Positions 19,350 through 62,200 of a stretch of 64,000 bases of DNA are shown piece after piece. The notes beneath the pieces are model-generated. The model was not told the origin of the DNA and searched no databases. It was given only the letters and a program-made list of their open reading frames with translations. Numbering within the stretch: the first letter of the stretch is position 1; every line of letters starts with the position of its first letter. Source of the stretch: Cystobasidium ongulense (Eukaryota > Basidiomycota > Cystobasidiomycetes > Cystobasidiales > Cystobasidiaceae); assembly GCA_022835595.1 (NCBI GenBank), contig BQUP01000009.1, positions 62,001-126,000 of the forward strand. The letters are read 5' to 3'. The position numbers and the translations under genes were made by a program.

Positions 19350-22300
19350 TCATGCTCTCTTCTTTGCTTGTTCCACCATCTCTGAAACAGACACTGGTTT
19401 TGAATTCCCACTCTTATCAACGGCATAAACGACATCTCCTCTTAGATAGATTGTAATACCATTTCTTCCATCTACTCCAGTTGAAATTTTGAACAAAGGT
19501 GATCCTGTAATTTCATGTGATCTACCAGTAGGCATGAATACTAGATTATTTTCTGCTGCGTATTCTTCTACTACTGCTCTAAAAGTAACTTCATTTGGAT
19601 CCATAGCTGGTATACGTGCTTGTTTCGTATTTTGCATCTTGCTTGATTGATTTCCGTTAGAAGATGATGTTGACGAATTGGCGGTAAATTGAGGCTTCTT
19701 CAAGCGGTATTTGGCATCTTCTCCTAATGAAATAGCTTGATTCATCAGATCTAAAGCAGTCTCGAAACCTCTCGTAACACCAGGTAAAGTCTGTAAAGAA
19801 CCAAAGACCTCCTTCTTCCACCATGTATACCATTCTGCGACTTGTTCGAAATTGACACCGGGACTTGAAAGCCAAGTATGTAAAGTATCCAAATATTTAG
19901 GGAAGAATTCCGTTTCTAATATTTGAGAAAGTACAGAATCGCGCAATAACTTCCTCCATGCTAGAACAGCAGTAAGAGGGTTTAGATCTTGCTCTCTTGG
20001 ATTGATGGTGAAATCTTCCCGAAGTTGAGCTGCTAATTGTGGTACTATATATTGAAGAATGAGATTATCCCACTCGGAAGCTTGAATGACTTCTCGCCAT
20101 ACTTCCAATCCTTCCGGTGGTCCATCACGAATTTTGCATGTTTTAAGCCATCCTCTGATTTTACGCTTTGCATCATCCATGACTTCATCCATTCGCGTAC
20201 CCGCGGATTCAAGCCATGGAAAGAGAACGTGATGGAGTGTAATCGTGCTTGACTTGCTCTTTCCTTTGCGTGGTGGGATCCATTCGCTGACTGCCCTCTT
20301 GAGCTTGGGCAGGATGAGCTGGTCCAGCACGTTATCACTAACAAAGTCTGGGAGAAGACCGGAGGATTGCCAGCTTGAGTATAAAGCAAGTACAGGCGTT
20401 GGATCGCTCGGTTGCCAGGCGTTATTGATCGCCGAACGCACGCGGGGCATCCACTTGGTCCAGAGGAGCATCTCGAAAGCAGTCATCTTTGGTTCGTTTA
20501 GAGGCGTCATTAACGGGCTCGTTGGCTTCGCTGAAGAGTATGACCCAAAGATTCCAACAGCCTTCGATGTATCGCTTCGACGCTGTCTGCATCTGAAAGC
20601 CTTCTTCCACTTCTTGAGTTCAGCCAGATAAAGCGTAGGTTCTGCTAAAACGTCCCATTCTTGCCATGCTCGTTTTAAAAGCGGGGCCAAAGCAGCGACG
20701 ATAACCTCGTCTAGTTTGTACTGCTTGTATTCGTCTTCTGTGGCTACGTTCAAGAGCTGTGAGAATAGATCGGTGAACGTTCCCATTTGCTCCTGTAGAG
20801 GACGGTCATCATATGCAAGAGATGTCGAATGCTGCTGGATGGCAGTGGCGACTTTTGTGAGCTGCTGAAGTCGTGCGATGCCTGTCGATAGACACACAAA
20901 ATTAGCACCCCTGTGGGACAGGTTCATGAAGCTGATAGATTAACTTACGTTCGAGATTAGCTTTCGCAGACTGTCTCACGCGAGCAGCTTCATTAGCTAA
21001 GTATTTTCTTCTTTCCGCCGATATTCTTGCTTCGCGAACGAGGTTGTCGACTTCCGCTTTTGTGAAATCCGATACCATAGTAAGATTATGTAACAATTCT
21101 GGCAGATTTCTGTTGTCCGTGGAGGGCACATCATGTGAAGTTGCTGCGTGACTTAGATCGGCAGTTGTGAGTTGACGCCCAGACAAGTCGTAGATAGCAC
21201 CAACGCCAGCAGGTGAAGCGGTTGCATCTCCTCCAGAAACCATCTCTTCGTATGTCATGTGCTGTACTTTCGGCTTTCTCGGCTTCTTTTCTTTCCAAGC
21301 TGGGGGACCTTCTGCTTCTCCTCCCTTTCCAGTACTTGTTTTCTGCTTGTCCTTTCCTTTACGTTTAGGTTTACTCTTTGCATCTTCGTCGTCGGACGAT
21401 ACAACTTCTCCAGCTGCCTGCTTCTTCCGCTTCGCCTCTAGCTTAGCTTGCTTTGTTCGTTCTGAGAACCCTTCGAACGCCAATCCCATTGCTTTGGGAC
21501 GAAGTCGGCTTTCCAGTGGAGTGATCATTCCTTCTCCCCCAGACCCAAGACCTGCTCCAGCCGACCACCCCATCTTCTTGAGAAGGTTGAAACCAAAACC
21601 GCCTGTTGAAGCTAGCTTGCTGAAGTGCTTTTGCTCTTCTTTTGACAGAGTAGCCGGCTTTCGTGGTGCAGCTTGCCCAGCAGGAGTCGAAGTGCCTAGG
21701 AATGCTCGACGTTGCTGAGCAGCTGCCATTCCCATTCCTGACTTTGGCACTTCGTTTGCTTGCTGCTCAGCTGCAGGTGAAGCAGGCGCAGGTGAGGTCG
21801 ATGTGCTGGCAACCGGAGGATGGTCTAATGTCTGGCTCATCGCTTCAGATCTTGCTTTGCTCCCAATACCACCCATAGTACGTGCGCCAATTCCACCTTT
21901 TTGTGCTGAACCTGAAGCTTGTATGCCTGCCATTGCGGCTTTCAATCCTTCACTGACAGGTTTATCCACATCGGCCTCGTCGACCTCTTCGCTCCGGTGT
22001 CGAGGTACCCGAACCTTGGGAGCATCCTCCTCTGAATCGCTCTCCTCTTCGCCTGATGTCGATGCTCCTTCTTCTCCTGAGGTATCGGCCATATTTTCTT
22101 GGTCTTCATTTTGGGCGCCACTGCCGCTGGTTGCAGCTGGCTGGAAATCAGGTATATCCATGCTTTCGTCGGCATTTGTATCGTTAAAGGAGGTAGTCGG
22201 CGTTGCTCCAGATGATGCAGAAGGTACGAATGTTTGTGCCCTGTGGTGCGTTCATGCCGTAGGTCAGTCAAGATTCGTCCAGGTCATGTGCATCATCCAG

Positions 22301-31156: not shown

Positions 31157-33821
31157 CTATCCGAAAACTTCATTGTGAAACATGAAACGTATGCCTGTCT
31201 TTTCTGCCGACGCTCTTGCTGTTATTTGAGCGCATTGATCCGCCAGCATCTTACCGATAGCTGGTGGTCCGCAGTGGAACACCCCTACTCTGCCGTGCCA
31301 TCCTTGACTCGTCATGTCTTCATAGTACTCTGCAAGGATCCTTTCATAATCGGGTCGCCCAAATTCGGAATTAACCTTCAGGCCGGTGAGAGCGGAATAA
31401 GGAAAGTCTTTCGTTCGGTATCCATCGAAGAGGTACCTGAATACATAGGTAGACAGTTTCGTTCTCTTTGCGATGATGTGGGTCCGAATGTTCAAAGTGA
31501 AGTTCTTGCTGCATTCAGCTAGCTCGGCAGCACGATTCAAAAGATCTGAGAACCAAAGCAGATCATCCTTTTCCCTAACAGACCAATGAAAGTCACAGCG
31601 CCTTATTCCAAAATTCCCTGAATCCGATCCACCAGCTGTTTTCACATTCAATACTTCCGACTTGACAGCGCGGGTGATATCGCGTTTGTAGGCTGCAACA
31701 GCGTCGACTTCGCTGTCAGAGAGGGAGCGTTTGACGTTCTGCCGAGGTTGACTGCTTGTCATGGTACGGCTACGGACAGGAAGGAAAGACTTTATTCGAG
31801 TCTCTTTCCACGGGTCTTCCTTTGCTCTAACACTCTGTTCGAGATCAGCTAAGCATGCCGAGAAAGGTGTCATGCCGCTGCATGCAAAATCAAAAAAGGT
31901 GTCAGATGTGTCTTGTTCTTGCGGTGTACCTGCGCTCACATGCCAGAACCACTGGGAAATGGTTGAAATGTATCAGTCGCACGTATCGAGACATTCAAGC
32001 CCACATGGTACTCACATAACGATAGACTTATTGAAAGTGTAAAATCGCTGTGCCGGAGCGCCCCATGGGCCATCGATTCCAACTTTAACAGTCGTAAAGA
32101 AATCTCTGCCGGATGCTAGCGTACCGGCTATCTCGTAAAGTCTTGCAGTCCAGTTCCCATCCGCCTTGACATGAAGTTGTAGCCGACCGCCTATGCAGCT
32201 ACTAATCGTAAAAGGAGGCCACTGGAAACGCGAAACGTCTGGCACTTGCACAAGGACCTGTAATGAGGATGTAAGTCTAATCGCATTCATAGTATGAAAT
32301 AGCATATGCTGACATATTGACCAGCCCGCGCTGCCCAAGTCTGGCCTTCTGCTTTTTCAAGCGTGATGCAGGTGACGCCACCGTCTAGCGCTTCCAGCTT
32401 GGCAGAATATTGGCCAAAGAATGTCAAATAGAATCGATGGAGCCTCTCAGCCGACACAATTAGGCCCGGAGTTACAAGCCAATAGCCTAGCATCGGCTCT
32501 TGGACTGGGGAAACACGTATGAGCTGAGTCCGGCCATGTTACAGAAGAATGATGTCTCACTCAGTTTCTCAGTACCATGTAATGCCAGCATTGCGAATAT
32601 GACTGGCAGACAGATTCCAGTGCCATATTAGCTTGTAGTCTCAGAGTCAGTTAACAAGACTCACGGTACACGAGCATGTGCGCCATCTGGAAGACTTCAT
32701 AGTTCCGCTTTCGGACCCAAGGAGTGCTGGCCAATGCTATGACCAAGAAAGTGCATAGAGCGGTCAGACCGCTCCAGCCGGCTCGCGTCGCTCTGAAACT
32801 TTCAGGTTTCAGTGAATGTACCAACAAGTCAAGGTGTTCGCCGCTGCTGTGGGGATTTCACATGCACTTGCAGATATCCTTGCTACCAGTGTGAAGTAAG
32901 TGGTACTCACAAGAAATCACTGTACGAGCGGCGGACGTATCGTTTGCCCAGGTATTGCTTCACTTGCTTTTGACGGTTGCGAGCTGTTCCGTAGTGAAAT
33001 GTTCCGGACAGGTGACCGATCATATGCGCAAGAGAGAGCAAGAGGGCCAAACAAGACATTTGAATGTGAAAAGATCGTGAGTGATCCCAGTCAATGAAGC
33101 GGGACAGGGCATACGATTTTCGAAAGATGGTCGCGAGCCAGCGGCTCATTGAGATAATCAGGAAGAAAAAGGTTGGGTACAAAGCTCCTGCAAAGAACTT
33201 AGCCACTGCCACACCAGCACTGAAAGCGCGGAGTGCCTTTCTGTCTAGAGCATATTTCAGTCCTTGCCAGAGGGAAAAGGAGAGAACGAGGACTAGCACA
33301 AATGCAAGAAAGGCCATTTCCGGTGCTCTCACTGACCACCAGGCAGACAGCCGTCTACGCCATGGTAGGTGTAGATAGTATCGCTCTGCGTCGTTCTCCT
33401 TGCTGTCTCTGGACTTTTGGTTCGCCGACGGGATGTTCCATGCTTCTACTTGCCTGACAAACTCTTGTTTCGTTATCCAGTCACCCGAGTCGGGAACGAG
33501 TCTGCATAGGAAGTCGTGCAGATCACTACGCTGCTGATGATGAGAGAAGGCTGTTGGTATTTCCCGTTCTGTGGGCTGTCTATTCGCCGTATTTCGTTCT
33601 TTGAGTATACTTTTGCGGATTTTAGCCTTGAGTGTACTGCGCTCGGGATGGGTCAGGTGATGACGTAGAGGGACAGGAGCTAGCTCATTGTAAACTTTTA
33701 TGAGTGTTGCTTCTAGATCTTGGAATGAAACCTTGCCGTCTCTGTCGTGGTCGAAATCGTTGTATAGCTCTTGGATTTCCTCTTCGCGTAAAGGCACAGT
33801 AGCCGCTGTATATAGCAACAT
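31157..33821 (-). CDS. EF-hand NADPH oxidase, paralog A
   Basis: This is a superoxide-forming flavocytochrome of the NOX family, passing electrons from NADPH via FAD and two hemes across a membrane. The start at 33821 is uncertain, since CAG just downstream could be a splice acceptor and the true first exon could lie upstream. Residues 24-35 form one EF-hand loop (DHDRDGKVSFQD), suggesting Ca2+ control. Heme ligands are kept: FHIQMSC with a second His 14 residues on (about 33030-33080), and AHMLVY with a His 13 residues on in FAMLALHG across an intron (about 32590-32690). The FAD motif, normally HPFTI/S, reads PPFTIS (about 32200). NADPH-site blocks are GMTPFSACL (about 31860) and VGVFHCGPP (about 31270). 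It ends FHNEVFG. Paralogs B and C follow upstream in tandem. It is whole but more diverged than the others. Confidence 0.88.
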
Positions 33822-34348
33822 CAAGTAGCAATGAAGGGTGTAAGTCTACGGCTTGCATCGATATTAGGCGACTTGATGTGAAGATGAACTAAAGTGCATG
33901 TAATTGGCGCCCGTTCAAGCAAGGCGGCACAGGCTTGGGGGCCTCTCGTGTCCGCGCCGGGCCAAGTGCATGAAGCTGTGCACTTCTATCTCAGATATGT
34001 ATCATTACCAGGCAGGATTCAATGAGCGCATTCTGTGTAGCTTGCATCCGCATGAGCGGAAGGCGCGTTGATCTTCATAGGCTCGCCAACTCTTGCGGCT
34101 TGCGCGCGTGCAGGACCGGATCAATAGGCGTGAGTGGATGGCATCTGCGACGTCTATGCTGACTTGCAGGCTTCTCTGTTCGAGGTTGATACGCAGTGAT
34201 TAGTGGATCTGGAAAAGCTGCCTGCGAGCGCATTCTAGCGAGCAAAAAGGGCGATCGACAAGAGCAATTGTGCTTGTCCGATTCACCTTACTAGTTTAGG
34301 TAATTACATCTATCGCAAGTGATACAACGCTTCTAGCCAATATACGCT
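33822..34348. promoter_or_regulatory. Spacer between oxidase paralogs A and B
   Basis: This 527-base stretch holds the promoter of paralog A, perhaps an unplaced first exon of it, and the 3' UTR of paralog B. Confidence 0.35.
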
Positions 34349-36915
34349 TCAACCAAAGACCTCGTTATGAAACATGAATCGCATTCCCGTGCCTTCAGTG
34401 GAGGCTCTGGCTGTGATCTGGGCACATTGATCTGCAAGCATCTCTCCAATTATAGGTGGACCACAGTGGAAGACTCCAACTCTGCCATGCCATCCTTGCT
34501 CTTTCATATCCTCGTAGTACTCCGTCAAGATAGCTTCATAGTCGGGTCTGCCGAATTCCGAAGTTATCCTAAGACCCGTTAAAGCTGAATAAGGAAAGTC
34601 CGGCGTTCTGTAGCCATCTAGAAGGTATCTGAAAACGTGCGTAGAAAGCTTCTTTCGCTTGGCGGTGATATGAGCCCGAATGTTGAGAGTAAGGTTCTGA
34701 TTTGCGTCGGCAAGCTCGGCAGCACGATTCAGAAGGTCGGAGAACCAGAGCAGGTCGTTCTTCTCACGTACAGACCAGTGAAAGTCGCATCTTCTGACCC
34801 CGAAACTTCCTGGCTTTAGCTTCGGGCTGACTCTCAGTGAAGCTTGCTGCGGAGTAGCGTTTTTGTCAGTGGACGGGTGCCTCTCGGCGACCGTCTCATC
34901 GCTACCGGCGGCTGACTGAGTTCTACTGGGTGACGATGCTCGACTGGTTGCGATAGTACGCTTCCTGCCTGGTCCAAAAGACCGCGTCCGTGTAAGCTTC
35001 CAGGGGTCGCCTTTTGCTTTGTGGTTCTCCTCGAGGTCCGTGAGGCATGCCGAGAAAGGCGTCACACCGCTGTGAGAGCGAACATGAGTACCACCACAGT
35101 CGAAGTTCACTTAATAGCTATGCTTACATGCCAGAACCGCTGAAGAAGACAAAGACGAGGATGTCAGCGAAGTACACGTGCAAGAAGGTTGTTTGGCGTA
35201 CTCACACAATGATAGACTTGTCGAATGTGTAAAAGCGCTGAGCCGGTGCCCCGAATGGTCCATCAATTCCCACTTTGATCATGGTAAAATCGTCATCTTG
35301 TCCATTCTTGGCTGCACTAGCCAATTTGTGTAGCTTGTCTGTCCAGTTGCCGTCCGCTTTGATGTGGATTTGGAGGCGACTGCCGATGCACGTGCTGATG
35401 GTGAAGGGGTGCCATTGGAAACACGATACAGTGGGAACTTGGAGTAGTACCTGCGATGAGTCTTTCCATTCAGCGCATTCTCATTGTTTGTAATGTCGCA
35501 GCAGCTCACGTATTGACCCGCGCGGGCTCGCCACTTCTCCCCTTCTGGTTTCTCGGCAGTAATGACGACTGTGCCATCATCTAACGCCTCTAATCGAGCG
35601 GGGTGATGATTGAAGAAGGTGAGATAGAGTCGACGTGACCGCTCTAAGAATACGCATAGGACTGGAAAGACGAGCCAGTAACCCATCATAGGTGCTTGGA
35701 CTATAAAAAAGTCAGTCAAGTCGAATTACAATACTTGCATTGAAACGAGGCTTGCTTACGAAGCTTAGCCGTTCCGTGTATAGCCAGCATGGCAAACATA
35801 GCTATGAGTTTTGCATCAGATAGATGCTAGCCGTGTGATAAGTGTCGACTTGACTGTACTTACGATACATGAGCATGTGAGACAGTTGGAAAAGTTCATA
35901 ATACTTCTTGCGAAACCATGGGATGCTGGTAAGTCCAATAATAATGAAACTACTCAAAGCAGTAAGACCTGTCCAGCCTGGGCGGGAAGAACTGCACCGG
36001 CCGTTAGAAAAGGTCTTGATCCAGAGAGTGTGAAAACGGTTGCTGAACTCACATGTAATCAGAGTACGAACGCCTCACATAGCTTGCCCCCAAGTATCGT
36101 TGAAGGTTCTCCTGTCGATTCGCGGAAGAGCCATACACGAAAGTACCGGTCATGTGAGATATTGCGTGCGTGAGGGAAAGTATCAATGCTGCGCATGACA
36201 TTTTGATGTGAAAGGATTGCGATAGATCCCAGTTGATGAACCGAGAGACAACGTACGATTTCCGACACAAGGTTGCGAACCATCGACTCATTGAGAGAAT
36301 GAGGAAAAAGAAGGTAGGATAGAGAGCACCGGCGCTGAACTTGGCTGCTACGACGCCACCACCGAGGGCGGCACGTGCTTGTCCACTTGTAGCGTATATT
36401 AGCCCTTGCCATAGCGAGAAGGCGAGAATGAGAGCCGATACGAAGGTGAGGAAGGCCACTTCGGGTCCTTTAACAGACCACCATGCCGCCCATCTTCGCC
36501 CAAGTGGTAGCTTGCGATCATAATCTCTCGCATCGTCTTTATCGTTATCGGAAGATGCCTGGTCTGCAGAGGGAACGTTCCAAGACCTCACTTGATTGAA
36601 GAACTGCTCTTTGCTCATCGAGTCTCCGCATCCTGGCATAAGCTGGCGGAGAAAGTCATGTAGGTCGCTGGTGTGGGGTTGTTCTACAGGTTGTGCCGCC
36701 TTCTCCCCTTGAGAACTCGCTTTGCCGCCAGCCTTGCTGCGTTCAGGATGATTCAGGTTGTGTCGCTTGGGATTCGGAGCCAGCTCGTCGTGTACGCTCT
36801 TCAAAGCCTCCTCCAGTTCTTTGAATGATACCCTTCCATCATTGTCGTGATCAAAGTCGTTGTATAGTTCTTCGATTTCCGCCTCGCGCAGAGCTACAAA
36901 AGTTCTTGGCGCCAT
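34349..36915 (-). CDS. EF-hand NADPH oxidase, paralog B
   Basis: This is the second of three tandem NOX genes. The ATG at 36915 gives MAPRTFVALREAEIEELY and then a canonical EF-hand loop DHDNDGRVSFKE (residues 22-33); a second, degenerate helix-loop-helix (MSKEQFFNQVRSWNVPS) follows around residue 120. Membrane helices include YPTFFFLILSMSRWFATL. Heme His residues lie in SFHIKMSC and, 14 on, in LTHAISH. The FAD block is intact (WHPFTIST, about 35410), as are GPFGAPAQRFYTFD (about 35240), the NADPH-site GVTPFSACL (about 35060) and VGVFHCGPP (about 34470). It ends FHNEVFG at 34349. Introns fall at the same points as in A and C. A variable Ser/Thr-rich insert lies after RSFGPGRKR in the NADPH lobe. 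The EF-hand suggests activation by Ca2+ instead of the NoxR/p67phox route used by fungal NoxA and NoxB; that is inference. Confidence 0.92.
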
Positions 36916-37388
36916 TTCGCAGAATCCGCGTGTTGTAGGATGCAGACGCCCTCGAGCTGCACTGACACTGCTGTAAGGAAGGAAAGAGAACTCAACGAAT
37001 TACACAAAACCGGACATTCTAGCCAAATGGACGCAATTGTGATTGCGTCCATGTTTTGCCAACATGTCTTGGAAGCCAGCACTCGATCAGCCTCGCTTGC
37101 TTAGGTGACATCGCCGTCCAAAGTCTACAAGTTGACCTTTGACGAAGTTTGCTCAATCCACGAACTAGCTTTCAGCTCGAGCTTGCTGACAGGACTCAAT
37201 ATTAATGATGTTTATGTGAATCCGCAAGTTGGAGCGGAAGAAATGTCAATGCAATTCAGATCAGATGTTCGAAAGACCAGAACGCGATCACCACAAATTC
37301 GAAAGCAAGTATGAGGAGGTTACATATGCAGGTTTACATTTCAAGGTGTCTCTCCTTTCCCTACAGGCTTGAGAGGCAGGTTTGCCAT
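36916..37388. promoter_or_regulatory. Spacer between oxidase paralogs B and C
   Basis: This 473-base stretch holds the promoter of paralog B and the 3' UTR of paralog C. Nothing else was recognised. Confidence 0.35.
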
Positions 37389-39984
37389 TCATCCGAACAC
37401 TTCATTGTGGAAGATGAATCGTATGTTATTTCCTTCAGCAGCGGCTCTAGCTGTAATCTTTGAGCACTGATCCGCCAGCATTTTACCCACGACAGTTGGT
37501 CCGCAATGGAAGACTCCAACTTTCCCACGCCATCCTTGTGCTTTCATATCCTCATAGTATTCTGTAACAATAGCTTCATAATCCGCTCTTCCAAACTCTG
37601 ATGTTATTCTGAGGCCAGTGAGGGCAGAGTAGGGAAAGGTTTTCGTTCTATATGCATCAAGAAGATACCAAAATGTATGAGTTGACAGTTTCTTTCGTTT
37701 GCCAGTGATATGTGCCCGAATGTTCAAAGTGAGATTCTGATATTGATCAGCGAGCTCAGATGCGCGATTCAGGAGATCAGAGAACCAGAGCAGGTCATTC
37801 TTTTCACGAACGGACCAGTGAAAGTCGCAGCGTCGAATGCCAGAGCTTCCTGGATTGTATTCGTGAGCCGTCTTCGTCTGTGCTATCCTAAGTGGACCTT
37901 CCAGCGACGACTGCGCTTCATCGACGACGGTCACTTCGCTTGGCAGGGATGGGTGCGCTGGTGGCATGTATACTTCAGTTCCAGAAGTGTCGATTTTGGA
38001 CACGCTAGGCTTCTCAGCTCCAAAGGATCGAGTCGGGGTAATTTTCCAAGGATCCCCTTGAGCTTTGAAGTTTTCTTCAAGATCTGTAAGACAGGCCGAG
38101 AAAGGTGTAACACCTCTAAAAGGGGTCGGTAATACTTAGTAGAGCTTGACTATCATAACAGCTGTATACTCACATGCCAGATCCGCTATGGGAAGTCACA
38201 AACATCAGCTACGAGCTGCGGTCGAGGCTTCGCTCATGCGGCTTACACTATGATAGTCTTGTCAAAGGAGTAGAATCGCTGGGCTGGAGCACCAAATGGC
38301 CCGTCGATCCCAACGCTTATTGCAGTGAAATCGTCATCGAGTGCTGTTTTGGAGGACCTTGCCAAGTTATGAAGCTTCTCTGTCCAGTCTCCATCTGCTT
38401 TGATATGTACTTGCAGACGATTACCGATGCAAGTACTAATTGTGAAAGGGTGCCATTGAAAACGTGAAATGGCAGGCACTTGTAGCAGGACCTATGGAAG
38501 CACCGAGTCAACAACGAGTCAGGATGATATTGTAAATATGTACGAATGAAGTAGACTCACGAATTGACCAGCTCGAGCGTTCCATCTAGTTCCTTCCGGT
38601 TTTGCCGCTGTGATCACCACTGTACCGTCGTCTAAAGCTTCTAACCTCGCAGGGTGATGGCTGAAGAACGTCAAGTAAAACCGATGAATGCGTTCCAGCA
38701 ACACACAGATGACTGGGAATGCGATCCAATAGCCCAGCATTGGAGCTTGAACTGCCATAATCCCGGTATCAATAACTGCAGCGGCCAAACTTGTCACCTC
38801 TAGAATCACTCACGAAGGTTGGCACTTCCATGAATAGCCAACATGGCGAACATGGCTATGGAAAGGAATGTTGTGTCATTATTTTGTCATATGGCAAGGG
38901 AAAGTGGTCATTCGAGTTGAACTTACGATACATAAGCAAATGTAATAGTTGGAAAATCTCATAATATCGCTTTCGAAAGATGGGGGCGCTACTTAGACCG
39001 ATGATAATGAAGCAGCCCAAAGCAACAAGACCGGTCCAACCACTACGCAAGCGACTGTTGATATTATCAGTGATGATTGGCATGAGTCGGCAATGCGGTG
39101 ACTTACATAAAGTCTGCATAGGAACGTCGAATATATTTCGATCCTAGATAGGTCTGAACGTGGCTTTGACGATTTGGGGAGGAGCCATAGACGAAGGTGC
39201 CTGTAAGATGTCCGATCGCATGGATAAGACAAAGAACTAATGCTATTGAAGACATTTTAATGTGAAAAGATTGCGATAGATCCCAATTAATGACTTGCGA
39301 TGCGAGATACGATTTTCTGCAAAACGTAGCGAACCAGCGGCTCATTGAAAGGATGAGAAAGAAGAAAGTTGGGTAGAGAGCGCCAGCGCTGAACTTGGCT
39401 ACGATAAGACCAGCGCCAAATGCGGAGCGTGCGCGTGCATTTGTTGCGTACTTCAACCCTTGCCATAGACCGAATCCCAGTATAAGCGCAGTGACGAAAG
39501 AGAGGAAGGCGACTTCGAGCCCTTTGACGGCTGCCCACGCCGAGAGACGGCGCTGGAGAGGGAGTCTGCCTTGGTATTCCTTTGCATCGTTTACTTCACT
39601 GTCGGAGGATGTCTGGTCTTGCGAGGGTACGTTCCAAGAACGAACCTGATGGAAGAAGTCCTCTTTTGAAATGGCTTCTCCACATCCTGGCATGAGACGT
39701 GCCAGAAAGTCATGCAGATCGCTGGGTAGAGGCTTCTCTATATCTCCGGTCGTTTGCTCGACCTTTTCGTTATTCTCCAAGCCCTGCTTTGTAGCGCCTC
39801 TGGTGCGCTCTGGGTGATTTAGCTGGTGGCGCTTGGGATTTGGGACTAAGAATTCAAGGACGCCCTTCAGAGTGTCCTCGAGCTCTTTGAACGATACTTT
39901 CCCATCCTTGTCATGATCAAAGTCATTGTAGAGCTCCTCAATTTCGGTCTCGTTGAGTGGAATGAGGGTTGTCGATAGAGCCAT
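37389..39984 (-). CDS. EF-hand NADPH oxidase, paralog C
   Basis: This is the third tandem NOX gene and the most upstream one. The first ATG is at 39984 (MALSTTLIPLNETEIEELY); starting earlier would need GTG. It has a canonical EF-hand loop DHDKDGKVSFKE (residues 23-34). All four heme ligands are present: FHIKMSS plus a His 14 residues on (about 39220-39260), and LLHLLMY plus a His 13 residues on in FAMLAIHG (about 38840-38950, across an intron). FAD block WHPFTIST (about 38450), GPFGAPAQRFYSFD (about 38280), NADPH-site GVTPFSACL (about 38090) and VGVFHCGPT (about 37510) are intact, and the end is FHNEVFG. The NADPH-lobe insert differs in length and sequence from those of A and B, while the rest is very similar. 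All three most likely arose by local duplication. Confidence 0.92.
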
Positions 39985-40650
39985 GGTTGATGAGTCGAGC
40001 ACCGGTGCAGGCAGGCCAGTCAGTCAGAAGGAGCAGGAGGACAGGGACATCTTCCCGCTCAGCAGCAGGCCATCGCATAATGCCTGCTAATTCACAATAC
40101 ATATAGCCACTACTAGGACCTGGTTCGGTATGTCGGGAGTGGGTCGACAAGTTGTCGATCAGGTTCTCCAGCAGGTGAATGGTCAGCGAGAGCGAAGGTG
40201 AGGCCATTAATATTTGTGCGTTCGACACATGCGGCCACTCTAGGCCATGCTCACTACTGCACGGTAGTCTGGCTGGCTGACAGCAGTATCAAGATACCGA
40301 CGGCATGTTGGCGTCAGCAGAAGCCGTAGCTCGAGTATCTCAAGTTCCAGTCATGGTCGGCCTGATTGGGTTCAGGACACGACGAGCACCATTCAACGAC
40401 AGCCTCGTCAACAGTCTATACAAGACAGACGGCACTCATGGCAGTAGTACTGGTATTCGCTTACACTGCAAGGCCACCCGCGTCCGACCTCCGATAGTCC
40501 GTCAAGTCTGGATGGACCTGCCCAACGTACAGACATACTCAACATGACAAGGTTGAGGTATATGAAAGAGGGAGCTCGTCTGACTTGCTTCTTGCCTCCT
40601 GACAATCTCAATACCAACTTCATCCTACACTCAGCGAAGTTTCCTGTACC
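39985..40650. promoter_or_regulatory. Divergent promoter region
   Basis: This 666-base stretch lies between oxidase paralog C (-) and the unknown conserved gene (+). Short reading frames here have no family motifs. It should hold both promoters. Confidence 0.4.
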
Positions 40651-57861: not shown

Positions 57862-57867
57862 AAAAAA
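57862..57867 (-). terminator. RNA polymerase III terminator of the tRNA-Gln gene
   Basis: Six T on the minus strand begin at the discriminator base of the tRNA. Runs of at least four to five T end Pol III transcription, so this fits a live tRNA gene. Confidence 0.85.
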
Positions 57868-57901
57868 GGTTCTATCCGGGTTCGAACCGGAGACTCGAGG
57901 A

Positions 57902-57912
57902 GATTTTAGATC
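57902..57912 (-). other. Canonical 11-nt tRNA intron at position 37/38
   Basis: GATCTAAAATC lies directly after base 37 (A at 57913) and before base 38 (T at 57901), the standard site cut by the tRNA splicing endonuclease. Removing it restores a seven-base anticodon loop. Confidence 0.75.
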
Positions 57913-57923
57913 TCAAAACCTCA

Positions 57924-57987
57924 CTGGGGGAGAGAAGATACTGAATCAGAAATTGGTGCCGTGCTGATTGCGCTGACTAAGCCTCAC
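57924..57987 (-). other. 64-nt GT-AG intron-like insertion in tRNA-Gln
   Basis: The insertion starts GTGAGG and ends TCTCCCCCAG on the strand of the tRNA. A CTGAT branch-like site lies about 22 nt before the end and is followed by a pyrimidine tract. Its length matches the 50-90 nt spliceosomal introns of the neighbouring protein genes. It sits between positions 26 and 27, where no endonuclease-type nuclear tRNA intron is usual. Removal restores a normal tRNA exactly. Confidence 0.75.
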
Positions 57988-58013
57988 CGTGCTAACCACT
58001 ACACTATAGAACC

Positions 58014-59217: not shown

Positions 59218-62200
59218 TTATCTACAAGTGTTGCGCACTGGCAGTGTAGGCCATTGCAGTGCCAACTTCTGAGCCATTTCTACCAAAGTATAGTACAGAG
59301 GACCGCGCCTGGTCCATTCTTCAGTGGGATCCTTCGAGAAGATGAAAGCATCTCGTACTTTAAGAAGTGCAACTTGCATGGCTGTGACTTCGCGATCTGA
59401 TATGGCAGACAGAATGTCTGCGATTTCATGGATTCGGTTTTCTGCTACCGTGACGGAGAAGGCTGAGTACGAGAGGACCGAACTGAAGGGGAAGCTGGTA
59501 CGATCTGCCATAAAGACAGGAATGCAGCCTGCGTAAATAGCGTCGAAAGCTCGGTTCGACCTACAGAAATACAAGTCAGCGAGAACCGCTATTCCGAAAG
59601 TAAAGAATGGAACACACCAGCCAGCAATACCCCGTGGGAGCAAGCAGAATTTGGCATCGTTTAGCTTGCCAATGTAGTCTTCACCTTGAGTTGTAGTTTC
59701 GTAGAGTATGTAACCTTGACTGGTTGGCGTCGCAGCTGCACAACCTAGTCGTGTTCTTGCAAAGGCCCCGAAACCTTTCACGTCTCCAGCGAAAAAAGCG
59801 AGATTCTTTCGCTCGCTGAGCCTTCGAACATTATTGATATCGCCGTAAGCTTTGACAAGAGCATCAACATGCTTGGTGACAGCCGGTATAACAATATCAC
59901 GTTCCGCTTTGATGCATCGAGTGTTGTAGTCTCCATTGACCTGCCATGAAATCGCTTTCGACATAGGCGGAGGCGGGGTGCGCGAGAGGACGTCTTCGAG
60001 TAAAGGCCACCAGCCGGTACACTAGCAGCACAACACAATTTAGCTCAGTAGTCGGAGAAGCGAGGAAAATTACCCACCGATCCCCAATCGTGTGTAAATG
60101 GAACGACGATATTCGAAGCCTTCAGCTTGTCGGACAGAAGTATCTGGCTTTCGGCAACGGCTACAGAGTCTGCCAACTTTTTATACGTGTTTTCGTGGAG
60201 GTAGTTAAAGTAGCAACCTTGATAGTACGGGATGAACGCAAAGTCCGCATCCTCCACTTCTACCGAACGCTGCGCGAGGGCTGTTGCCAGGTAATGATCG
60301 CCAGTTGCTGGTACATCTGCTTGGTTAACATCGTAGCAGGATGCATTCTGCATATGCGTGTCCACGTCTTCTGGCAATTCAACGGCGTATCCTTGCGGGA
60401 GCGCTTCAAGCGGTAGGGAGAACACGTGTCGCGCACTTGGCTGGACTACAGCATCCCAAGGTAGATCTTCGACCTGCTCTCGCAATGTTTCGCTCTTTGT
60501 TGCATTGTCCACTTCACGAACCGATGCAGTGACGGCATCGCCAGGCAGTCTGGAGTAGTCAACCGATAGAGCCAAGCTGAAAGCAGCCCATGTTTGGGGC
60601 GAGACTTGGGGGGATCTTTCGTCGCCACATCGATCTCTTGTACAACGGCATTTGTCGTGAACAAGGCAAGAGATCGGGGCATCGCAATTGATACTGCAGA
60701 TTGGCAGATCGTGCACTAGCCAATCGCTGCCTTCGCCTAGTGACCTAGGGCATGTATTAGAAGTAGCAGACTTCTCGTTCCAAGTATTCAGTTTCTTGCT
60801 GTATTCGTGCGCTGAGCGTAGATCTCTGCATTTTTGAAGTTCGTATGTTGATTCTGCAACACTGTTTGATCCATCTGGGGAGGGATAAAGGACTTGTGAT
60901 GTGAGAAGAGCTATGAACATCGAACCTATCAGCATTGTTATACGTTAAAATCCAGTAGTGGACTTACGATCTTCTTGTAAGAAAGTGAAACCGTTGATTG
61001 GGCGTGGTTGTTTCTCACTGCAGCAGATTGGATTGACTCTCCATTCCATTGTCTGCCAATCTGGTTCTGTTTCAGCCAGAGTCTGCCAGCCAAGATCGAG
61101 AACGTCTTTCATCGTAGTATCGGGATGCTTTCTTGAACTATCGATAGCGAAGACCATTCTACGCTTTGGTGCTTCTTGACCAGCTTGCGGGTACTGTCTG
61201 ATAGACAAAGTGAAAGACCGCATATCACGCCTAACAAAGTTCACTTCGAAATTGTCGTAGGACCAGAAGGTAGTGCTTTCTTCCTGCAGCTGGCTCGCTT
61301 CAGTCCGAGTCGCCCATCGGCCTTCCAGCGTCTGCGTACTTTCGATCCATACAATCGTTTCGTCTGCCCCTTTCTCACCGAAAGGACAGACAAGACCGAC
61401 CTCAACTTTGCCTACTGGTCCCCATCTCGATCTTAGCTTGACTTGGCTGAGTGTTTCTGTGTAAGGCACGGCATTTGCCAGTACGATGGGCGATGTTGCG
61501 GGTGTATAGTCGTATGCAGGATTGCAAGCTAGTACCACATTCTCTCCCGATACCAAGCCTAGAAGCTGCACCGAGCAAGTATTTAGCTGTGCGAGTGCAT
61601 CGTTGAGTGTGCGCAGGTCATGTGGAGGAGCACAGGCTTCGGTGATATGCTGATCGAAGAAGGAAGCTTGTCGTCCAAGTAAGCTGCGGATGTATGCTTT
61701 GAGAGCGAGAGGAAGGGGTGTAGAAGGTGTAGTGCCCAAAATTGTTCTCGCCATGGACCGATCAAGAGGTCGGCCTTGCAAAGTTTCCCGGCTGCCTAGA
61801 GCACCGTTAGAATGGACGAATCCAACTGGTGAAGCGGACTTCGTGAGCTGGATGATCCAGTCCAGTGTCTCTTCTGCTACTGATTTGCCGCTCGTGGAGG
61901 CATAGACTGGTACAGCAGAGTGCGCGCGAGGAGGTGGAACAATATCTACTTCAGCAAGCATAGATAGCCGGCTGACATATTCGGCATTGTGGGCTCTTGA
62001 CAGCAATTCTCCAGCAGCGACGAAAGCCTCGACGACATCGTCAATATAGACTACTCCTGTGCCGTCCCAGACAGATTTCGTGACTGCTTTCTCCAGTGCA
62101 CGGTTGTCAAAGGTAGAGTTATCGAAGACCCGGACATTCATCGAAGGGAAGGTATCGTCATCTAACACGATGGGTAGATGTCCAATAGCTGAGTGTACTA

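Follow-up and report, generated by a model that had tools for sequence, protein, structure and literature searches.

Candidate spliceosomal introns in nuclear tRNA genes of Cystobasidium ongulense

How would a cell mature a tRNA whose gene is interrupted by what looks like an mRNA intron? The question is raised by a tRNA-Gln(UUG) gene of the basidiomycete Cystobasidium ongulense (assembly GCA_022835595.1), located in the 64,000-nucleotide stretch of contig BQUP01000009.1 that we analyzed (positions 62,001 to 126,000; hereafter the window, whose numbering is used unless a contig is given).

The interrupted tRNA-Gln(UUG) gene

A preliminary description of the locus had claimed a 64-nt insert between position 26 of the tRNA and the anticodon stem, in addition to an 11-nt intron at 37/38, and the sequence contains both segments as claimed. 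The GTGAGG donor, CTGAT motif, pyrimidine tract and CAG acceptor ascribed to the insert are likewise all present. The locus is organized as follows.

57988..58013, minus strand: exon 1, comprising the acceptor 5' strand, the D arm and position 26 (from the sequence and its likeness to a Gln(CUG) gene)
57924..57987, minus strand: insert of 64 nt with GT-AG ends, separating positions 26 and 27 and interpreted here as a spliceosomal intron; it belongs to a set of 24 from 19 tRNA genes
57982..57987, minus strand: 5' splice site GTGAGG of the insert (from the sequence)
57945..57949, minus strand: branch-like CTGAT, whose A (57946) is the presumed branch point and lies 22 nt ahead of the insert's 3' end (motif)
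57924..57940, minus strand: pyrimidine-rich tract leading to the CAG 3' splice site (from the sequence)
57867..57923, minus strand: exon 2, comprising the anticodon arm with its 37/38 intron, the variable loop, the T arm, the acceptor 3' strand and the discriminator T (from the sequence and ARAGORN)
57902..57912, minus strand: ordinary 11-nt tRNA intron at 37/38 (ARAGORN: ttg with an 11-nt intron)
57878..57888 (C9:119878-119888), minus strand: GGTTCGAACCC, intact and without interruption (pattern match)
57862..57867, minus strand: T6 run, a likely Pol III terminator, whose first T is also the discriminator (from the sequence)

Read along the minus strand from 58013 to 57867, the gene consists of GGTTCTATAGTGTAGTGGTTAGCACG, the 64-nt insert, TGAGGTTTTGA, the 11-nt intron GATCTAAAATC and TCCTCGAGTCTCCGGTTCGAACCCGGATAGAACC, followed by TTTTTT. 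The element GGTTCGAACCC is the B box, the internal Pol III promoter element. The insert itself runs GTGAGG...CTGAT...CTCTCCCCCAG, and its first six letters, GTGAGG, are repeated across its 3' junction (57924-57919). Removing both segments yields the 72-nt tRNA-Gln(UUG) that had been anticipated (discriminator counted), with the anticodon TTG. A default ARAGORN run on the window returned no tRNA, and an Rfam scan of the window at the gathering score returned no match; once the 64 nt were taken out, ARAGORN called Gln(ttg) with the 11-nt intron.

A DNA search of the genome with the Gln(UUG) gene hit one place only. Its 5' end, with up to three mismatches allowed, hit two, the second being a Gln(CUG) gene (L015). 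Apart from the window locus no Gln(UUG) gene turned up; the two further Gln genes detected, L015 and a copy with a decayed 5' end (L161 with L123), carry CTG.

To ask how much the splice signals of this gene say when it is taken alone, we scored 1223 parsed single-deletion products as cloverleaves. The GT-AG product was among three tied best scores, and GT-AG or GC-AG ends were possible in 2.0% of the products (p ~0.06); the chance argument from this gene by itself is moderate.

Interrupted tRNA genes across the genome

The genome comprises 19.77 Mb in 19 contigs, with a GC content of about 49% in the 338 kb examined. Low-scoring Rfam tRNA matches (63 of the 554 candidates of the genome scan were scored) and hits of T-arm patterns revealed tRNA 3' halves that follow a branch-like motif and AG, with the 5' half lying upstream and stopping at GT or GC. 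The resulting set, produced by a script with borders picked by eye, comprises 24 inserts of 57-67 nt in no fewer than 19 tRNA genes (17 isoacceptors): Gln(UUG), elongator Met, Arg(CCU), Ala(UGC), Asn, two copies of Ile(AAU), Cys, Thr(UGU), Arg(UCG), Phe, Tyr, Trp, Leu(UAG), Leu(AAG), two copies of Gly(GCC), Lys(UUU) and Ser(AGA). When parsed by hand, 23 of the 24 inserts have GT-AG ends and one has GC-AG ends. A CTNAY motif whose A is 15-23 nt away from the insert's 3' end occurs in 23 of 24, the exception being the second intron of Trp, and TTTT occurs in none.

By hand numbering, the inserts occupy 14 positions (7/8, 10/11, 13/14, 14/15, 18/19, 19/20, 20/21, 22/23, 24/25, 25/26, 26/27, 28/29, 32/33 and 46/47). 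None of the 24 lies at 37/38, and ordinary 37/38 introns are also present in several of the 19 genes. As detection required an intact T arm, the absence of T-arm introns carries no meaning. Both Ile(AAU) copies, Tyr, Trp and Leu(AAG) hold two inserts each, with internal exons of 18, 14, 11 and 7 nt, the last of these in the following gene.

C2:2841350-2841725: tRNA-Leu(AAG), L109, with the 7-nt internal exon TCTAAGG between its two inserts

The exons of all 19 genes still form a tRNA. A run of at least four T begins no more than 29 nt downstream in 17 of them; the two Gly loci have no such run in the 31 and 32 nt inspected. Counted by hand, 19 of 45 tRNA genes are interrupted and the 26 other full-length genes carry no such insert. 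The count excludes Arg(UCU), the odd L019, L030 (truncated), L029 (partly masked) and the Gln copy with the decayed 5' end. The Arg(UCU) gene would be the twentieth.

C2:2726705, minus strand: tRNA-Arg(UCU), L031, whose insert has CTAAC and a CAG end and lacks a GT donor

None of its 12 tied best products has GT-AG or GC-AG ends, one of them would begin with GAAAGT, and no second Arg(UCU) gene was found. This insert may mark either a dead copy or a GA-AG intron.

Since the borders had been chosen with splice signals in mind, we performed a scan blind to these signals. For each of the 14 single-insert genes, every deletion of 45-100 nt was made, and the products were scored as cloverleaves. The annotated, splice-consistent product was among the top-scoring ones in 12 of the 14 genes, or in 11 of 13 with the Gly pair counted once, against an expectation of 1.0 of 13 (P ~3e-14, pooled over the 13 independent single-insert genes); just 0.5-2.0% of the products allowed GT-AG or GC-AG. 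For Ala, Phe and Lys, the annotated GT-AG form was the unique best product. The misses were Asn, whose unique best product was not splice-consistent and whose annotated product came third, and Leu(UAG), whose best splice-consistent product ranked 15th. At D-loop junctions up to 28 products were tied, so that structure by itself is not decisive. ARAGORN assigned the expected anticodon to 15 of the 19 spliced genes and to 0 of the 19 unspliced ones, and, when deletions of the same length were placed at random in the 14 single-insert genes, to 95 of 840 products. The spliced forms of Arg(CCU), Thr, Trp and Leu(AAG) were called as tRNAs with another anticodon.

Could the interrupted genes be decaying or insertion-damaged copies, with intact genes elsewhere? 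Broken tRNA pieces do exist in this genome, namely L030, a truncated Ala tRNA, and the decayed Gln(CUG) copy L161 with L123. A run of N adjoins L029, and with 63 of the 554 Rfam candidates scored there is further room for such copies. Against this, for ten isoacceptors (Phe, Tyr, Trp, Cys, Asn, elongator Met, Ile(AAU), Thr(UGU), Arg(UCG) and Ala(UGC)) the T-arm pattern lists contain no gene that shares the T arm and is free of an insert. These lists were complete (40, 17, 40 and 39 rows) for the readable part of the genome, although copies with another T arm would escape them; the rows were checked at the locus, except for 2 in a 40-row list and 12 in the 17-row list that were judged from the matched letters. 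A cell without a tRNA for Phe, Trp, Tyr, Cys or Asn is not viable. A spliced Phe query matched a single genome locus, in two pieces. The exons of all 19 genes, as noted, still form a tRNA, and those of the Ile(AAU) pair are better conserved than the introns: the two copies differ at 0 of 74 exon sites and at 19 of 128 intron sites (p 2e-4), with 17 of the 19 differences in intron 1, where the donor and branch motif are spared. Moreover, decay would not be expected to leave GT-AG or GC-AG cutting possible in every one of 24 inserts. We consider damaged copies a highly improbable explanation of the set, and the possibility that the window gene is a dead copy, which the preliminary description had left as an escape, fails within the reach of our search: it is the sole Gln(UUG) gene found.

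T-arm-based detection did not find genes for His, Ile(UAU), Leu(UAA), Pro(AGG), Ser(GCU) or Val(AAC). We also inspected 34 B-box places, 46 nt each. L123 (Gln) and L148 (Gly) proved to be tRNAs, L134 and L149 have five T-stem pairs and no T run within the 46 nt, and the other 30 were rejected as tRNA by eye, on stem pairing or acceptor. Some isoacceptors occur as pairs in opposite orientation, 3-24 kb apart: Gln(CUG) at C9:330809/C9:333621, one decayed at its 5' end, Ser(UGA) at C4:1303576/C4:1306601, and Gly(GCC) at C4:103978/C4:127993.

U6 and mRNA introns of the same genome

Splicing of Pol III-made U6 snRNA had been put forward as a precedent for the Gln(UUG) gene, and U6 of this very genome provides one, with at least three introns of the same kind.

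C1:2352930-2353440, minus strand: U6 snRNA gene, L159 and L160, with at least three GT-AG introns of 64, 64 and 60 nt

The gene reads ...GGCACACATAAAAT, a 64-nt intron, TGGAACAATACAG, a 64-nt intron, AGAAG, a 60-nt intron and ATTAGCATGGCCCC... Joining the exons, the internal ones being 13 and 5 nt long, gives ACAATACAGAGAAGATTAGCATGG and restores ACAGAGAAGATTAGCATGG. The introns begin with GTTAGT, GTTAGC and GTTAGT, and none contains TTTT; CTAAT lies 19-20 nt before the end in two of the three, and intron 3 has no CTNAY. Because the 5' part is interrupted, the best U6 match reaches 37.3 bits, below the Rfam cut-off of 44. A TATATATATAT stretch lies upstream of the gene. Not all Pol III genes are affected: seven 119-nt matches to 5S rRNA cover the whole model, and an eighth match is 137 nt long.

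In several of the interrupted tRNA genes, the insert splits the A box near A14/G15. The GT of an intron at A14/G15 partly rebuilds the A-box letters, as in TGGCCGA/GTGAG of Ser, and judging from these letters, the promoter might remain legible. An upstream TATA box as a shared feature was considered and rejected, as only 5 of the 19 genes have one.

For comparison, we predicted mRNA introns from reading-frame continuity in 338 kb, with codon use trained on 17 window ORFs, 14 of which have Pfam matches. The set held 63 unique entries, or 62 after removal of a false one that was part of a tRNA-Ser gene. Two other attempts gave 16 mixed candidates (a strict scan) and noise (an unseeded EM). The 62 introns have a median length of 67 nt (range 53-99), and their donors are mostly GTGAGT, GTAAGT or GTAAGC; CTNAY was present in 48 of the 63 entries (false one included) at a median distance of 21.5. 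As the set was seeded with the fungal donor and branch consensus, these donor and branch figures are biased that way.

Against these 62 introns we set 21 nonredundant tRNA inserts. Both groups have the same ends, branch motif, branch distance and size range. The preliminary description had stated that the Gln(UUG) insert matches local mRNA introns in length; this stands for the size range, whereas on average the tRNA inserts are shorter (p 4e-4). They also differ in composition: TTTT is found in 0 of 21 tRNA inserts and 19 of 62 mRNA introns (p 0.002), G content is 13% versus 23% (p 6e-10), and folding energy per nucleotide is -0.069 versus -0.175 (p 6.5e-9), so that the inserts are nearly unstructured. 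These differences fit the host, since T runs are best avoided in Pol III transcripts and an intron should stay unpaired with the tRNA around it. TTTT does occur in the exons of Gln, Leu(UAG) and Lys after splicing and is thus not an absolute barrier.

The donors differ as well. T at +3 occurs in 11 of 21 tRNA inserts and 1 of 62 mRNA introns (p 2e-7), mostly as GTTAGT; the remaining insert donors are mainly GTGAGT, GTAAGC or GTAAGT. GTTAGT or GTTAGC opens 10 of the 21 tRNA inserts, all 3 U6 introns and none of 129 coding-consistent mRNA donor sites, a count that was made without the consensus seed and agrees that GTTAGY is unused in mRNA. Together, the GTTAGY donor, the absence of TTTT and the weak structure suggest an intron subclass fitted to Pol III transcripts. 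As a separate observation, GTTAGT is rare in the window (7 occurrences against 19.75 expected).

Origin and processing of the inserts

The same kind of insert in 18 other tRNA genes and in U6 favors the spliceosomal reading proposed for the Gln(UUG) gene. On the sequence evidence, we are confident that short U2-type spliceosomal introns have entered nuclear tRNA genes and that these genes work. Pol III would transcribe the entire unit up to the downstream T run, its role being suggested by the tRNA genes themselves. In the nucleus, the spliceosome would then excise the GT-AG introns, one or two per transcript; the tRNA would fold after their removal, and the tRNA endonuclease and a ligase would take out the separate 37/38 intron where present. 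Several features count against this reading: the donors with T at +3, the lack of CTNAY in Trp intron 2 and U6 intron 3, the blind-scan misses for Asn and Leu(UAG), the four spliced genes given another anticodon by ARAGORN, the TTTT in some spliced exons, and the Arg(UCU) insert. The internal exons are extreme, at 7, 11, 14 and 18 nt in tRNA genes and 5 and 13 nt in U6.

A different machine is invoked by the view that the inserts represent atypically placed tRNA introns, which the tRNA splicing endonuclease would excise at a bulge-helix-bulge, as in archaea or some algae. Several ectopic introns per tRNA are described in these organisms (PMC3978253, PMC8450103), and ordinary 37/38 introns do occur in several of the same interrupted genes. 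However, the 4-bp central helix that would separate the two 3-nt bulges is complete at 1 of 24 junction pairs, where 0.66 is expected from shuffles, and the model predicts no GT-AG ends, branch motif or mRNA-intron length, all three of which are seen. We regard it as very unlikely. For the window gene only, ARAGORN run on the unspliced locus with introns of up to 200 nt permitted reported Ile(tat) with a 74-nt intron, but such a single ordinary intron at 37/38, in which the GTGAGG repeat lets the first TGAGG copy act as the anticodon-stem 5' strand, is scarcely credible: it sets another anticodon on a Gln body (24 of the first 25 nt are identical to the Gln(CUG) gene, C9:330868-330892), leaves no Gln(UUG) among the genes found, and fails to account for the other genes, whose inserts fall in the D arm, anticodon stem or variable loop.

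Group I and group II introns have a large catalytic fold of hundreds of nucleotides; self-splicing of this type was rejected for inserts that are 57-67 nt long and nearly unstructured, with no Rfam match in the window at the gathering score. A family of recently copied introns (introners) was not supported either, as the best pairwise insert score of 20 equals the maximum of 40 shuffled sets (95th percentile 18). Two exact patterns sought in viral_contigs gave no match.

How do spliceosomal introns in tRNA genes relate to known systems? A 2017 survey names just two small structured RNAs, U3 and U6, as known frequent hosts of an intron (PMC5832005). The introns of fungal U6 snRNA and U3 snoRNA resemble the present ones in being spliceosomal, with GT-AG ends and a branch motif in a small structured RNA, and U6 here has at least three; in contrast, the hosts described here are 19 tRNA genes, with inserts at 14 cloverleaf positions, at most two per gene, and in some cases beside a 37/38 intron. 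Nuclear tRNA introns are described as placed exclusively at 37/38 (PMC3978253), and in a 2026 review as cut according to structure, with neither GT-AG signals nor the spliceosome involved (PMC13149111). Such endonuclease-type introns share nuclear tRNA hosts with our inserts and occur in several of the same genes, whereas the inserts lie elsewhere and have GT-AG ends. The ectopic introns of archaea and Cyanidioschyzon merolae are similar in occupying many positions, several per tRNA (PMC3978253); here, unlike there, the bulge-helix-bulge is at chance level, and spliceosomal signals are present instead.

Within the open-access literature, covered by titles and the openings of abstracts, we found no report of spliceosomal introns in tRNA genes, and the tRNA passages of Cryptococcus and Kwoniella papers gave no lead. 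In that literature, the intron type and the Pol III precedent are already known, and the tRNA host is the part not known before.

We consider it likely that these introns represent a third route of tRNA splicing, in which about 40% of the tRNA genes, among them the only ones for Phe, Tyr, Trp, Cys, Asn and elongator Met, would depend on the spliceosome through a Pol III-fitted intron subclass (GTTAGY, unstructured, free of T runs) common to U6. Since the sole gene found for several isoacceptors is interrupted, the reading of their codons would need the spliceosome and, if the third route is real, translation would be tied to splicing. As U6 would be needed for the splicing of its own transcript, splicing and tRNA supply would then be coupled. 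The introns of tRNA and mRNA have been treated as separate worlds with separate machines, and a spliceosome acting on many tRNA precursors would break this divide. It would also offer a natural setting in which to study Pol III transcripts, and exons of 7-18 nt, as substrates of the spliceosome.

A practical consequence is that essential tRNA genes can escape standard tRNA finders. A standard tRNAscan-SE search gave an incomplete tRNA set for C. merolae (PMC3978253), and the tRNAscan-SE 2.0 paper describes how introns placed elsewhere are sought in archaeal tRNAs (PMC8450103). If our reading is true, intron-rich relatives whose annotated tRNA sets seem incomplete may conceal the same introns. 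The genome paper of Phaffia rhodozyma lists 49 tRNAs with just 12 anticodon species, and reports for its order the highest intron density among the fungi compared (PMC5103461). Twelve anticodon species are too few to read the code, and we would guess that hidden spliceosomal introns could be responsible.

The window holds two further loci of note. At 19350-22251 on the minus strand, there are GCFC and G-patch ORFs, and the GCFC ORF resembles Tuftelin-interacting protein 11, a spliceosome disassembly factor. At 31157-40023, also on the minus strand, three tandem units each pair an EF-hand ORF with a nearby ferric reductase NAD-binding ORF, in what looks like a triplicated gene for an EF-hand oxidase or reductase.
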